Shown: positions 28,228 to 32,811 of the stretch, in pieces | How positions within the stretch are numbered: the stretch's first letter is position 1 | Layout: the number at the start of each line of letters is the position of its first letter | NCBI RefSeq assembly: GCF_000010405.1 | Contig: NC_009465.1 | Span: forward strand, 620,001-684,000 | DNA length: 64,000 nucleotides | Origin: Candidatus Vesicomyosocius okutanii | Lineage (GTDB): Bacteria; Pseudomonadota; Gammaproteobacteria; PS1; Pseudothioglobaceae | Reading direction: 5' to 3' | Notes under the pieces: generated by a model | The model's database searches: none | What the model was told of the DNA's origin: nothing | What the model saw: only the letters and a program-made list of their open reading frames with translations | Translations under genes and position numbers: made by a program

Positions 28228-28797
28228 TTATTTAAAAAAACTCGAAAAATAATAACTTGAGTTAAAAATACCTGTGATAATTGAAATATAGATAATTGAA
28301 GTGATAGAGGTTCCAGCAATGACACCTATAAGAATATTTTTGAGTTTAATATCAATAACTGATAAAAAATAAATTAATACATTAATTGAAATACCAGGAA
28401 TAAAACATAATACAAAAATAATGGAAATTTCTTTGCTTTTAATTTTCTGTTCAAACTGAAGTATTTTTTCTGGCACTTTGAAATTAAGTTTATGAGAAAA
28501 ATTATAAATAATTAAACAATAACTTACAATCGCTATTTGAATAGCAAAAAACACCTGTATAAAAGAAAAAAGATAAATACCTGCTAGTAAGAATATAGCT
28601 CCAGGCAGAAATGTCAACCCCCTAATAATCAGTATTATAATATACACTAAATAAGAAGTTAAAAAATTTTTTCCACTTAGAAATTCTTTAAGCATAACTA
28701 GATCAATCTTATATCCATTTAAGTAAAAGTAAACTACCAAAGAAACATTAAGTAAAATAAAACTGTAAAAAAGATGTTTTGTGTTAATACTCTCCAT
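28228..28797 (-). CDS. VTT/DedA-like membrane protein, last gene of the cluster
   Basis: 189-residue integral membrane protein with five or six hydrophobic segments. The motif RGLTFLPGAIFLLAGIYLF and the later FIPGISINVLIYFLSV resemble the paired re-entrant halves of the VTT (SNARE-associated, TVP38/DedA) family, whose members move lipids or small solutes across the inner membrane. I start at the ATG at 28797 (MESINTK), not the TTG two codons earlier. It overlaps the ATP-grasp gene by 14 bases. As the final gene of the dioxygenase/decarboxylase/ligase operon, it may export the product or act on a lipid-linked form; that is inference. Confidence 0.7.
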   Translation of the reverse strand: MESINTKHLFYSFILLNVSLVVYFYLNGYKIDLVMLKEFLSGKNFLTSYLVYIIILIIRGLTFLPGAIFLLAGIYLFSFIQVFFAIQIAIVSYCLIIYNFSHKLNFKVPEKILQFEQKIKSKEISIIFVLCFIPGISINVLIYFLSVIDIKLKNILIGVIAGTSITSIIYISIITGIFNSSYYFSSFFK

Positions 28798-29683
28798 GAT
28801 CAAAAATTTGTATTTTATCTAATTGATGATAGAAAATTGATAAATCTTCACTTTTTCCATATCTGGGCTTGTTATGCATTGCTAAAAATGGACGTGAATT
28901 AAGTTCTAAAAAAATACACACTTGTGCATTAAAGTCAATCTCAATACCTTCCTTACAAATCACATCAATACCTAAAATATTAGCATCAAAAAAATTGAGT
29001 ATCTTTTTCAAGTCTTGTCTATTTTGTTTGGTTAATATTTTTTTATCAATAATTTCAACACTAGAACCTAATTTTAATGATATTTTATGATGTAAATACA
29101 CCTTTTGTCCAACGTTAGGAATACTAGATAAATTCATTTGTTGTTTCTTTAAATATTGTTTAATGGCTAAATTTTTAGGGATAGGCTTAATAATTGGCAA
29201 TAAATTCATCTTTTTTCTAACCAGATTCTCGTTATCAATCAACTTAGCTATATCACTCACATTATCACCGATCACAAAAGGAGGGTAACGTCTAAGTACC
29301 GACATTACCCCAAACTTAGTCATAACTATACGATAATTTTTACCCAATAAATATTTCTCAACAATACTTACTAACCACCATTTTTTAACGCTCAAACTAG
29401 CTTTAGCCAATTGCATATAAGTGTTAATAGGAAAATATGCTCCTCTAGAAAACCCACCAACATTAGGTTTAACAACTAAAGGAAAACCATTTTTTTTAGC
29501 AAATTTAAATGCACTAATAGGATTAATAAATATTTTACCTTGGGCATAAGGAAAATTATTTTCCTTAAAAGCCATTCTAGCTTGTGCCTTAGAACGACAA
29601 GCACGGCGTATTTTAAGTGGATTATAATCACTACATCCTGATAAAAAAAATCGTGACAAAAATCGATGTAGCCAATACTTCAT
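28784..29683 (-). CDS. ATP-grasp ligase, cyanophycin-synthetase-like
   Basis: 299 residues of the ATP-grasp fold, which joins a carboxylate to an amine or thiol through an acyl phosphate. Visible blocks are ARMAFKENNFPYAQG, the ATP-binding lysine strand FPLVVKPNVGGFSRGAYF, VEKYLLGKNYRIVMTKFGVMSVLRRYPPFVIGD, and the metal-binding end LGIDVICKEGI and FLELNSRPFLAMH. The VEKYL-GKNYRI and VIGDNVSDIAKLIDNEN segments match the ATP-grasp part of CphA and GshAB-type enzymes, implying an amino-acid or peptide substrate. There is no N-terminal or Mur-ligase domain. The four-base overlap with the next ATP-grasp gene suggests that the two work in sequence. Confidence 0.75.
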   Translation of the reverse strand: MKYWLHRFLSRFFLSGCSDYNPLKIRRACRSKAQARMAFKENNFPYAQGKIFINPISAFKFAKKNGFPLVVKPNVGGFSRGAYFPINTYMQLAKASLSVKKWWLVSIVEKYLLGKNYRIVMTKFGVMSVLRRYPPFVIGDNVSDIAKLIDNENLVRKKMNLLPIIKPIPKNLAIKQYLKKQQMNLSSIPNVGQKVYLHHKISLKLGSSVEIIDKKILTKQNRQDLKKILNFFDANILGIDVICKEGIEIDFNAQVCIFLELNSRPFLAMHNKPRYGKSEDLSIFYHQLDKIQIFDHGEY

Positions 29684-30489
29684 AATTCAACTTTTGATTG
29701 ATAATGTTTAATGACTTTTTTAAAAAATACGAAACGATTAAAATGTTCCTTAGGTGTTGTGTTACTAATTCTAACAAGGTGATACATATTGTCTTTAATA
29801 AACTGATGTTTATTTTTTTTTGAAATACTACTATCAAGTAGATTAATCGGAAATGGTGCAAATAAATTAACCTCAATAATATGAAACATACCTTTCAATA
29901 AATCTTGTTTAGAATTGGATCTAAGTCCCACTCTAGCGATTCGAAAATATGGTAATTCTTGCAAATGATTGTGCAATTTTTTAAGTTCACGGAGTGAGAA
30001 ATCTAATGTACAGTCTTGATAAATTACCTGTTTGTTATTAATACTATTCACAGGATAAGACTCGCCTGAATGGTTGATTACTTGAGTAATTGTTAGTGTG
30101 ATACAATGTGTTTCATTATCAGAATTTCGAATATAGAAAATCTCATATTCTTGCATTTCTATTGCTACTTCTTGAACAATGTAAGGAATTTTACTTTTTT
30201 TATGATTAAAAGCTAAAAATTCATCTCTTGAATCAATTCTTTTGATACCATTAGAATTCTGTCCCCACTCTGGCTTTAAAAACACAGGAAATTTACAAGG
30301 TGGATTGTTTTTATCAAGATAAGCTTGTTTTAATCTCCATTTTAAAGGGATGCGTTTATCCATATCAATTTTAGAATAAAACCCTTTTTTTTTATTATAC
30401 CATTCAGCGTTAATTTGAAAATAATACCAAGGTGGAATACCAAGTCTTAATGACCAATAAATATAGTAAAAAATTAACCTAAAAGTCAA
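29680..30489 (-). CDS. Second ATP-grasp-like protein
   Basis: 269 residues, more divergent than its neighbour. Blocks that fit ATP-grasp are FPVFLKPEWGQNSNGIKRI (nucleotide-binding lysine and glycine loop), IPYIVQEVAIEMQEYEIFYIRN (hinge and Glu), and GMFHIIEVNLFAPFPINLLD, where the Glu-x-Asn pair would bind magnesium. The N-terminus (FYYIYWSLRLGIPPWYYF) is aromatic-rich and may touch the membrane. The substrate is unknown. It overlaps the cupin gene by 11 bases and the other ATP-grasp gene by four, so all three are made together. Confidence 0.6.
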   Translation of the reverse strand: MTFRLIFYYIYWSLRLGIPPWYYFQINAEWYNKKKGFYSKIDMDKRIPLKWRLKQAYLDKNNPPCKFPVFLKPEWGQNSNGIKRIDSRDEFLAFNHKKSKIPYIVQEVAIEMQEYEIFYIRNSDNETHCITLTITQVINHSGESYPVNSINNKQVIYQDCTLDFSLRELKKLHNHLQELPYFRIARVGLRSNSKQDLLKGMFHIIEVNLFAPFPINLLDSSISKKNKHQFIKDNMYHLVRISNTTPKEHFNRFVFFKKVIKHYQSKVEL

Positions 30490-30967
30490 AAATTTCTCCT
30501 TTGATAGGGTTATCTGAATAAAAATGTAAACTTAAGCTTAACTCGGTAGCACTAATTTGATGAATATCATTATCCATTTTTCCTTTCACACTATTACTAT
30601 ATTTACACGTTCCATCAACAAGCGTACTACTACTAATCTTAGTCAATGGATTCTTATCAAAATCTTTGCATATTAACTGACCCTTAATTACATAAATAAA
30701 AGCACGGTCTGGATGTCCATGAATACGTGTTATTGCTCCTTTATCCCAATTTAATAGACCTAACCAATAACTTTTATTGTTAATAATAATATTTCTTGTG
30801 TAATTATACTGATCAAATAATAAAGTCTCTAAATCTATTTCTAAAATTAGTGTTTTTATTTTCTCAATAGCTAAAGTATATTTTTCCTCATGAAGTAATA
30901 CACACAACATCTTAAAATCAAAATTAGTTGAATGCGTATAATACGTATTTTGAATTTCTTTAAACAT
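30479..30967 (-). CDS. Cysteine-dioxygenase-type cupin
   Basis: 162-residue protein of the type I cysteine dioxygenase superfamily, non-heme iron enzymes that oxidise thiols to sulfinates. The pattern YNYTRNIIINNKSYWLGLL, then WDKGAITRIHGHPDRAFIYV, matches the family. Three candidate iron ligands are His83, His85 and His136 (NDIHQISA), with Tyr and Arg of the substrate pocket plausible at YTRN. The substrate could be cysteine, cysteamine, 3-mercaptopropionate or a peptide thiol; sequence alone does not decide. Its coupling to a decarboxylase gene (8-base overlap) favours cysteine to cysteine sulfinate. Confidence 0.75.
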   Translation of the reverse strand: MFKEIQNTYYTHSTNFDFKMLCVLLHEEKYTLAIEKIKTLILEIDLETLLFDQYNYTRNIIINNKSYWLGLLNWDKGAITRIHGHPDRAFIYVIKGQLICKDFDKNPLTKISSSTLVDGTCKYSNSVKGKMDNDIHQISATELSLSLHFYSDNPIKGEIFDF

Positions 30968-32348
30968 TATTTAATGTTCTTCCTCTCTTAACCAAACGAT
31001 TAAGTAAACTAACTAATTTCACTTTATTCATATTAATATTACTAATTAATAATCTAAATACTAATTTCTTTTCCACGTATGCTAAAGCCAGTAGGGCTTG
31101 TTGTCCCTGATATAAACTATCACGCAAACATTGATTAAAATTATTTTTATTAGAATGACTACTTTTAAAGCGAAAACATACATTAAAAGAAGTACGTTTA
31201 AGTACCATTTCTAAATCAACACTAGCGTTAATAAAATCTTCAGCAAATTTTGCCAGTTGATAGTAATTCTCAACTCTATCAGAAAACCCTTTCCTAGTAT
31301 AGAATTTCCAATCTAAAAACCATTTTAAACTATCAACACGACGACCACATTGCAATGAAGCAATACCCAAATCAGCCTCATTATCTCTAAAAATATAGCT
31401 ACCATCTCCATCTGCACAAGTACATGATAATAGATGTTTATGATTTAACAATAAAAAATTACACATTAAATTACTACCCAACATTTTGTGAAAGTCCATA
31501 GTAAAAGAATCTAGAGACTCAATACTTGTTAAAAATTTCTTTTTTAATTTCAAACTCATAATTGCCACACCGCCCCATGCACCATCACCATGTAACCAAA
31601 AATTGTGTTGCTTTTTCAGCATAGTTAACGCTTCAATATTGTCATAAGCACCTCGTACTGTTGTACCTAATGTTGCACAAACAAAAAATACTAAGCCACC
31701 TTGTTGTTTTATTTGCTTGATTTTCTCATTAAGCAATATTGTATTTATTGAGCCATCTTCAAGGGTAGATACCTTAATTAAATGATTGGTACCAATACCT
31801 AATATATTGCTTGCTTTGTCTAATGAATAATGTGCATCCTCATTAACAAAAGCAAACAAATATTTCTGGTTAAATAATCCTTGTTTTTTTACCTTTCTCA
31901 ATGCTTGATTACGTGCAACCATCATAGCAATCATATTGGCATTACTAGATCCTGTGGTCATCTGTCCTTCACCATTTTTAAAGCCTACTATATCAAGCAT
32001 TTGTTTAATCATGTATCTTTCCATTAACGTCGCAACAGGTGCAGACTCAAAAGTGCAATTTGAAGTATTGCTTAGCGCAGTTACAATTTCACCTACAATA
32101 GAAGGTTGATTAGCACCCGACCACATACGATTAGCAAAATTAGGATGACTAGTATTAGGAGAATATTCTAAATATTGTTCTACCCATGTAAATATCTCAT
32201 CCCAACACTGTGGATTTTGTTTGTTTAAATTTAAGGTTTTTTCCAACTTATTAATAGTTTGATAATTAATGAGTTGGTTAGATTTTTTAAAATTTGAAGT
32301 AGCTAAGACTTGGGTTATTTTTTGTAAAACATCCTGATTTTGCATCAA
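30960..32348 (-). CDS. Group II PLP-dependent amino-acid decarboxylase
   Basis: 462 residues, related to glutamate, cysteine-sulfinate, aspartate and diaminobutyrate decarboxylases. The family landmarks are present: ANRMWSGANQPSIVGEI, GQMTTGSSNANMIAM, stacking His173 in EDAHYSLDKA, Asp255 in WLHGDGAWGG, and the cofactor lysine Lys288 in DFHKMLGSNLM. The C-terminal small domain is complete. Because the next gene is a cysteine-dioxygenase-type cupin, cysteine sulfinate to hypotaurine is the natural guess, but glutamate or 2,4-diaminobutyrate cannot be excluded. Confidence 0.85.
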   Translation of the reverse strand: MMQNQDVLQKITQVLATSNFKKSNQLINYQTINKLEKTLNLNKQNPQCWDEIFTWVEQYLEYSPNTSHPNFANRMWSGANQPSIVGEIVTALSNTSNCTFESAPVATLMERYMIKQMLDIVGFKNGEGQMTTGSSNANMIAMMVARNQALRKVKKQGLFNQKYLFAFVNEDAHYSLDKASNILGIGTNHLIKVSTLEDGSINTILLNEKIKQIKQQGGLVFFVCATLGTTVRGAYDNIEALTMLKKQHNFWLHGDGAWGGVAIMSLKLKKKFLTSIESLDSFTMDFHKMLGSNLMCNFLLLNHKHLLSCTCADGDGSYIFRDNEADLGIASLQCGRRVDSLKWFLDWKFYTRKGFSDRVENYYQLAKFAEDFINASVDLEMVLKRTSFNVCFRFKSSHSNKNNFNQCLRDSLYQGQQALLALAYVEKKLVFRLLISNINMNKVKLVSLLNRLVKRGRTLNNV

Positions 32349-32349
32349 A

Positions 32350-32811
32350 TTAAGCTCGTTTATTGAGAAGAAACATTACAACGCCTAAAACTAAAATAGA
32401 AAAAACTACATTCACCAAGCCTGAATCAGTTTGTATTTGTCCATTCTGATTCCACTTAACTATCCAGTTCAATAGGATAAATAAATAAAACAAAACTGAA
32501 TACATCATCACTAATACCATTAAACCACTAATGAAATGTAAATCTTTTCTTAAATACCAAAAAATAATAGGAGATAGCACAATTAAAAAAGTAAATAACT
32601 TAGAACTATTAATAACATAAGAGCTGTATTGAACAAATAATTCACTTATCATACCGCCTAGAAAATAACTCATCCAAGCACCAAAAGTAAAAAAGATATA
32701 TAAGGATTCTATTGCATAACTAGTAAATGTATAAGGTAATGAGCTTAAAAAAACATACAATACCAATAAGAGAACCAACCAACCAGCAACAACTTTAATG
32801 GTATTATTCAT
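32350..32811 (-). CDS. Hypothetical four- to five-helix membrane protein
   Basis: 153 residues, unrecognised. Hydrophobic segments: VVAGWLVLLLVLYVFLSSL, IFFTFGAWMSYFLGGMI, LFTFLIVLSPIIFWYL, FISGLMVLVMMYSVLFYLF and VNVVFSILVLGVVMFLL. No charged motif within the helices suggests a catalytic site. It starts the six-gene run (its stop is one base before the decarboxylase start) and lies 44 bases after the TrpD2-like gene, so a promoter could sit in that gap. Confidence 0.6.
   Translation of the reverse strand: MNNTIKVVAGWLVLLLVLYVFLSSLPYTFTSYAIESLYIFFTFGAWMSYFLGGMISELFVQYSSYVINSSKLFTFLIVLSPIIFWYLRKDLHFISGLMVLVMMYSVLFYLFILLNWIVKWNQNGQIQTDSGLVNVVFSILVLGVVMFLLNKRA

Follow-up and report, generated by a model that had tools for sequence, protein, structure and literature searches.

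A conserved operon of a vesicomyid symbiont links a cysteine-dioxygenase-like cupin and a CSAD-like decarboxylase to two ATP-grasp ligases

A six-gene operon of Candidatus Vesicomyosocius okutanii probably converts cysteine to hypotaurine and joins hypotaurine to other building blocks, as judged from sequence comparison. The window analysed comprises 64,000 nucleotides (positions 620001–684000) of the closed genome of 1,022,154 bp. In our preferred reading, to which we assign a probability of roughly 0.5, a module of the cysteine dioxygenase (CDO)–CSAD type would supply hypotaurine to a pair of ATP-grasp ligases making an exported amide. The substrates, product and export in this reading are proposed on the basis of features that the comparisons establish, namely the gene set and its order, conservation and co-inheritance, folds, catalytic residues and selective constraint. 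The operon is not a chance arrangement: its gene order recurs in 25 loci from three phyla among the best 80 of 163 relatives, and its four enzymes have dN/dS values of 0.06–0.18. The ligase pair is apparently an undescribed family that recurs across marine bacteria.

Operon layout and predicted enzyme functions

Six open reading frames were confirmed at positions 28228–32811 of the window, all on the minus strand and transcribed leftward in the order TM153, DEC, CUPIN, GRASP1, GRASP2 and VTT (Table 1). The first-pass annotation had described six genes on one strand with tight junctions, possibly from a vesicomyid symbiont, and both points held: the organism is such a symbiont, and a 1-bp gap (TM153/DEC) is followed by overlaps of 8 bp (DEC/CUPIN), 11 bp (CUPIN/GRASP1), 4 bp (GRASP1/GRASP2) and 20 bp (GRASP2/VTT). 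The trpD-like GT3, Rieske and lytic transglycosylase-like genes upstream are still present in same-genus genomes without the operon and are therefore neighbours, not operon members. A promoter and terminator scan of the operon gave results no better than shuffles, and no regulatory RNA family was found near it.

Table 1 Genes of the operon in order of transcription, with coordinates in the window
Gene	Predicted product and key residues	Coordinates	Strand	Basis
TM153	Four-helix membrane protein of 153 aa, DoxX-like; operon gene 1	32350..32811	-	Weak DoxX_2 matches in relatives
DEC	PLP group II decarboxylase, CSAD/GAD/GADL1 group; K288; R74-W76-S96-C98, R432	30960..32348	-	Pfam, PDB matches, tree, alignment
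CUPIN	Arg-type cysteine-dioxygenase-like protein; H83/H85/H136, R58, Y56, S146-x-H148-x-Y150	30479..30967	-	Pfam, PDB matches, alignment
GRASP1	ATP-grasp carboxylate-amine ligase, no curated family; K72, R186, E206, N208	29680..30489	-	Fold model, alignment
GRASP2	ATP-grasp ligase resembling the ATP-grasp domain of cyanophycin synthetase/GshAB; remaining domains of those enzymes absent	28784..29683	-	Profile matches
VTT	VTT/DedA-type membrane protein of 191 aa, in the place of the MFS transporter of most other clusters	28228..28803	-	Pfam VTT, neighbourhoods

CUPIN matches Pfam CDO_I (7.9e-8), and its top PDB match is mammalian CDO. The metal-binding histidines H83, H85 and H136 (CDO H86, H88 and H140), named in the initial assignment to CDO-type cupins, are invariant in 18 relatives. 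R58, equivalent to the substrate-carboxylate arginine of CDO (R60) and located within YTRN/YSRN, is nearly invariant (one Lys, in L079), and S146-L-H148-F-Y150, equivalent to CDO S153-x-H155-x-Y157, is conserved in nearly all relatives, with Ser instead of the CDO tyrosine in some Desulfobacterota cupins (L102, L116). The crosslink cysteine is absent, F90 occupying the position of Cys93 in mammalian CDO; the Cys93–Tyr157 crosslink is mammalian and is not known to be required in bacterial CDOs. These comparisons place CUPIN as an Arg-type cysteine-dioxygenase relative with predicted activity on L-cysteine.

DEC matches Pfam Pyridoxal_deC (2e-69), and its catalytic PLP lysine (K288, motif DFHK) is present and invariant in relatives. 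The top PDB matches are human CSAD (272 bits), GAD65 (271 bits) and GADL1 (268 bits); structures with a diaminobutyrate-enzyme annotation score well lower (151–186 bits). In the tree, the cluster decarboxylases lie beside the CSAD/GAD/GADL1 clade, with decarboxylases of stand-alone DEC–CUPIN pairs as their sister group. The Pfam match and K288 uphold the original call of a group II decarboxylase, but the pocket, compared with those of CSAD and GAD, carries W-S-C plus an Arg and not the CSAD motif. Three positions, which we take to be S192F/N212S/F214Y in hGAD numbering, reportedly separate GAD (S-N-F) from CSAD (F-S-Y) in the account of Agnello et al. from 2013. At these positions DEC has W76-S96-C98, Ser alone matching CSAD, and the position of GAD67 Gln190, which is Gln in both CSAD and GAD, is an invariant Arg in the cluster family. 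Cluster members are mainly W-S-C and one relative genome has F-S-Y; the sister pairs have W-S-Y with Gln, a motif intermediate to CSAD. The C-terminal arginine for an acidic side chain (R432) is invariant. We therefore regard cysteine sulfinate as the likely but not certain substrate of this CSAD-like family with an altered pocket, since that pocket differs from the published CSAD motif. High-scoring decarboxylases encoded elsewhere in Neptunomonas and Osedax symbionts carry a different motif, Y-T-H, and were left out of the CSAD count. A role of DEC as sole beta-alanine source in Ca. Vesicomyosocius okutanii was ruled out, as the genome has panD.

Both ATP-grasp proteins fall below Pfam cut-offs, but the proposal of two adjacent ATP-grasp proteins, one of them CphA/GshAB-like, was confirmed by a fold model for GRASP1 and a profile match for GRASP2. 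The AlphaFold model of GRASP1, built from 58 sequences (pLDDT 92), is closest to LysX/ArgX (VIA Z 14.5, rmsd 3.2 over 206 residues), synapsin, CphA and Ddl, with nearly tied Z values. K72, R186, E206 and N208 are invariant in 58 relatives, so that the Lys and the Mg-binding Glu/Asn are present in GRASP1 (K72, E206, N208), as they are in GRASP2 (K72, E260, N262). GRASP2 matches cyanophycin synthetase (7.8e-36, residues 30–281) and also GshAB; of its 299 aa only the ATP-grasp region aligns with CphA, and the three-domain architecture of cyanophycin synthetase is absent. Model and alignments together indicate that both are complete ATP-grasp ligases with predicted activity.

The two membrane proteins are less well defined. 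Weak DoxX_2 matches were obtained for 13 of 33 TM153 relatives (best 4.7e-5) and none for the window member itself, and a fold search returned low-Z helical-bundle matches only; we class TM153 as a poorly conserved, putatively DoxX-like membrane protein. VTT matches Pfam VTT at 3.2e-8, with 34.5 bits against a cut-off of 33.9.

Distribution, linkage and selective constraint

A GRASP1 profile scan of about 85,000 species genomes yielded 163 relatives, of which the best 80 loci were retained, so that locus counts describe those 80; the search patterns were taken from SUP05-group GRASP1 sequences and favour SUP05 relatives, and many of the loci are MAG contigs. Within this best 80 of 163, GRASP2 adjoins GRASP1 in 75 loci, DEC is present in 28, CUPIN in 29 and both in 25. 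All 25 loci holding the three genes have the order DEC-CUPIN-GRASP1 on one strand, and they span three phyla (Gammaproteobacteria, Desulfobacterota and SAR324). The loci with DEC and CUPIN come from SUP05/Bathymodiolus symbionts, Sedimenticola, Thiolapillus, Chromatiaceae, Desulfobacterota and SAR324, for the most part bacteria that cycle sulfur, and three of the 80 (L086, L099, L119) have DEC without a cupin. DEC presence switches at least nine times on the GRASP1 tree, and two mussel symbionts (L076, L083) retain intact ligases and VTT with DEC remnants only and no full cupin.

Clusters of Colwellia, Psychromonas, Neptunomonas, Endozoicomonas and Osedax symbionts consist of the ligases, TM153 and an MFS gene, with no DEC or CUPIN in the cluster, and such clusters often carry YHS, DinB or TANGO2 proteins. 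Genome-wide, no convincing CDO or CSAD was found in the Colwellia, Psychromonas and Endozoicomonas genomes with the ligase pair, and the ligases are therefore not strictly dependent on the cupin–decarboxylase module. Ligase-only genomes mostly lacked a CDO by three profiles, and the Osedax symbionts have one outside the ligase cluster; Pfam alone was judged unreliable for CDO absence because PF05995 does not detect the cupins of G247 and G314, whereas profile A9 does. For taurine uptake as an explanation of clusters without DEC and CUPIN, TIGR01729 gave generic binding-protein matches, none above cut-off.

Of the best 80 of 163 loci, 52 have an MFS protein in the cluster with the ligase pair and 19 have VTT; no locus has the two together, an exclusion confounded with phylogeny. 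VTT takes the MFS place only in the SUP05 group, one related Arcobacteraceae locus and, upstream, two Cocleimonas loci. The earlier suggestion of VTT as exporter is weak, as its place is held by MFS in most relatives; export is proposed on the strength of the MFS gene in most clusters.

Of 369 gammaproteobacterial genomes, 11 carry GRASP1, 7 carry an intact DEC or one of its sisters and 6 carry both (Fisher 1e-9, ignoring relatedness; 8e-7 without the window's family), and the co-occurrence genomes outside that family represent four different families. In the seventh genome with DEC, G395 (71% complete), the gene sits at the edge of a contig. The DEC–CUPIN and GRASP pairs lie on different contigs in G247, G314 and G105, and G070 has a cluster without DEC and CUPIN and, elsewhere, an F-S-Y decarboxylase beside a CDO. 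G070 looks like the same genome as G105. Recurrent linkage and co-occurrence thus support the view of the first-pass annotation that a thiol dioxygenase, a CSAD-group decarboxylase and two ATP-grasp ligases form one conserved pathway. Separate travel of the genes, which would have spoken against it, was seen in part: the modules are unlinked in three genomes (G247, G314 and G070/G105) and many heterotrophs are ligase-only, but the modules still co-occur in the same genomes.

Among 58 relatives, vesicomyid symbionts and SUP05 relatives that live freely or with mussels have an intact cassette, and it survives in four genomes of about 1.0 Mb. Other genomes of the genus show it in decay or lack it; one of these, of 1,160,782 bp, is presumably that of Ca. 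Ruthia magnifica. Values of dN/dS against Ruthia relatives are 0.06–0.08 for GRASP1, 0.14–0.18 for GRASP2, 0.09–0.12 for CUPIN, 0.10–0.12 for DEC and 0.12–0.14 for VTT, similar to those of neighbouring housekeeping genes, and about 0.55 for TM153; CUPIN compared with the closest relative (L054) gives 0.5, based on few changes. The operon enzymes in the symbionts are under purifying selection, though several relatives have lost the operon.

Candidate pathway and competing explanations

In the proposed pathway, CUPIN would oxidise cysteine to cysteine sulfinate, as its Arg-type active-site residues suggest, and DEC would remove the alpha-carboxyl group to give hypotaurine, a step suggested by its phylogenetic place, its arginine for an acidic side chain and its frequent pairing with CUPIN. 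GRASP1 and GRASP2 would then form two successive amide bonds with ATP, and hypotaurine, because it has an amine and no carboxylate, would cap the end of a short peptide-like amide through its amine. The product might be exported by a membrane protein, the MFS protein in most relatives and possibly VTT in the SUP05 group, with the DoxX-like TM153 as an accessory. The ligase module would be the core and the cupin–decarboxylase pair an add-on in sulfur-cycling bacteria making the amine themselves; ligase-only heterotrophs would take up taurine or hypotaurine, or draw on a different amine, environmental taurine feeding being a guess. The enzyme classes and conserved linkage favour the original idea of oxidation, decarboxylation and two ligations, but the departure of the DEC pocket from the CSAD motif makes cysteine sulfinate likely only.

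That departure also leaves room for other substrates. DEC could be an aspartate or mixed aspartate/cysteine sulfinate (GADL1-like) decarboxylase whose beta-alanine is built into a peptide by the ATP-grasp pair, with the cupin oxidising a cysteine residue or other thiol in the product. GADL1, which decarboxylates acidic amino acids, matches DEC as closely as CSAD does (268 vs 272 bits) and has been reported active on aspartate and cysteine sulfinate (PMC5947694), and the DEC pocket is unlike that of CSAD. Within the genus, a genome without panD (G005) and one with a truncated panD (G009) keep DEC, and the six genomes without intact DEC all keep panD, a pattern that is not significant. We consider this explanation unlikely, given that the panD of Ca. 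Vesicomyosocius okutanii makes beta-alanine available, that some family members have neither panD nor DEC, and that the sister decarboxylases pair with the same cupin type without adjacent ligases, which fits CDO–CSAD better. Improbable to much the same degree is that DEC acts on another acidic substrate (cysteate, homocysteine sulfinate, or an amino acid that is phosphorylated or otherwise anionic), that the thiol oxidised by the cupin is not cysteine, and that the ligases make an unrelated metabolite, for instance a metal chelator or a toxin-like dipeptide. The invariant Arg for Gln and the Trp/Cys changes across 21 decarboxylases would suit such a substrate, the YHS, DinB, TANGO2 and VTT-MerA neighbours of the ligase clusters suggest metal or redox biology, and bacilysin-type systems likewise combine ATP-grasp with an MFS exporter; however, CUPIN keeps the Arg-type cysteine-binding residue and a near-CSAD pocket is kept in the stand-alone sister pairs.

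It is very unlikely that the symbiont carries the operon as a non-functional, decaying remnant. Its breakage or loss in several same-genus genomes, including the 1,160,782-bp one, and the fast evolution of TM153 point that way, but all six frames are open, the four enzymes are as constrained as neighbouring housekeeping genes, and four genomes of about 1.0 Mb keep the operon. That the ATP-grasp proteins act on a ribosomal peptide, as in a graspetide (RiPP) system, seems extremely improbable: ATP-grasp ligases with a transporter are reported as typical of graspetides (PMC8939145), but the gapless operon leaves no room for a precursor gene, none is obvious in the 175 bp after it, and GRASP2 matches the cyanophycin/GshAB type.

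Implications and relation to known systems

Hypotaurine and thiotaurine of vent and seep animals are treated as host-made. If hypotaurine supply to the ligase pair is the correct reading, symbionts may make the type of sulfur compound that their hosts use against sulfide. A cultured SUP05 relative grows on thiotaurine (PMC6509183), and this chemistry is therefore relevant to the SUP05 group. More tentatively, and with considerable doubt, GRASP1–GRASP2 clusters could represent an undescribed marine biosynthetic family making exported (hypo)taurine-capped peptides, the product in vesicomyid and other sulfur-oxidising symbionts carrying or buffering sulfane sulfur, so that symbionts would be one source of hypotaurine/thiotaurine chemistry that is ascribed to hosts. 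As a selected hypotaurine-type operon is kept at 1.0 Mb and lost in sister lineages, whether host or symbiont is the maker is testable by species comparison. The ligase pair also marks a type of cluster that recurs in Colwellia, Psychromonas, Neptunomonas and Endozoicomonas; these can be cultured, and the product could be found in them.

A bacterial CDO–CSAD taurine pathway was reportedly described from Synechococcus sp. PCC 7335 by Agnello et al. in ACS Chem Biol in 2013, a study listed among the references of PMC10356861 and PMC8153620. As there, a cysteine dioxygenase and a CSAD-group decarboxylase are encoded together in marine bacteria; here, in contrast, the operon adds two ATP-grasp ligases and membrane proteins to the pair, and the DEC pocket is R/W-S-C instead of Q/F-S-Y. 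GRASP2 resembles CphA/GshAB in that residues 30–281 align with the ATP-grasp region of CphA and share its RYPPFVIGD loop, but it is a stand-alone protein without the N-terminal, Mur-ligase and glutamate–cysteine ligase parts. GRASP1 shares its fold and ATP/Mg residues with LysX/ArgX, RimK and D-Ala-D-Ala ligases, but at about 10–14% identity, below all Pfam/NCBIfam cut-offs, and with GRASP2 as its partner in 75 of the best 80 of 163 loci.

Metal cupins also occur with ATP-grasp ligases, and sometimes PLP enzymes, in the operons of Iyer and Aravind 2010 (PMC2922099) and in SbzM-type clusters (PMC9113183), but those are an oxygenase–cupin fusion or the SbzM cupin in actinomycetes, and the passages concerned describe no CDO_I cupin with a CSAD-type decarboxylase and a GRASP1–GRASP2-like pair. 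A term search of the vesicomyid comparative genomics paper (PMC2642828) gave no mention of the operon genes, and no description of a gene set joining ATP-grasp with hypotaurine or CSAD was found in the open-access papers covered. The first-pass statement that it knew of no described pathway with this exact set holds within those papers, but its CDO–CSAD half was already known from bacteria. What is apparently new is the joining of a hypotaurine-type module to a new ATP-grasp pair, and what is known is the CDO–CSAD operon of marine bacteria.

Neighbours of the ATP-grasp ligase pair

VTT proteins recur around the ligase pair GRASP1 and GRASP2, and they take a second form, since a mercuric-reductase-like flavoprotein with a fused VTT domain lies near the ligase genes in 8 loci (L103, L107, L113, L124, L132, L136, L141 and L144) among the best 80 of 163 GRASP1 relatives. 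TANGO2/NRDE-family proteins with a Met-Cys start adjoin the pair at L087 and 9 more loci within the same best 80 of 163, possibly representing an Ntn-type hydrolase tied to the putative product. At L087, an Arcobacteraceae contig from a Campylobacterota genome, GRASP1 is 59% identical to its window counterpart and is accompanied by GRASP2, VTT, DinB and TANGO2; this GRASP1 locus was likely transferred to or from the SUP05 group.

TM153 and operon integrity

The putatively DoxX-like membrane protein TM153 (dN/dS about 0.55) evolves ~3–8 times faster than the operon's enzymes, and is widespread in the wider family despite this. In one SUP05-group genome, a 565 bp stretch containing frame-shifted, apparently transposase-like fragments separates CUPIN and DEC.

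Coordinates of individual features
Feature	Sequence	Coordinates
TM153	window	32350-32811
TANGO2/NRDE-family protein	L087	7149-7904
Stretch between CUPIN and DEC	L060	7903-8467

Decarboxylase and panD distribution

Among same-genus genomes, panD is kept in all those without intact DEC (6/6); G005 lacks panD and G009 retains only 32 aa of it, both with DEC intact. This distribution, a pattern that is not significant, is suggestive of substitution. A distinct decarboxylase clade with the pocket motif Y-T-H, near CSAD/GAD, occurs in Neptunomonas, Parendozoicomonas and Osedax symbionts (L152, L153 and L156).
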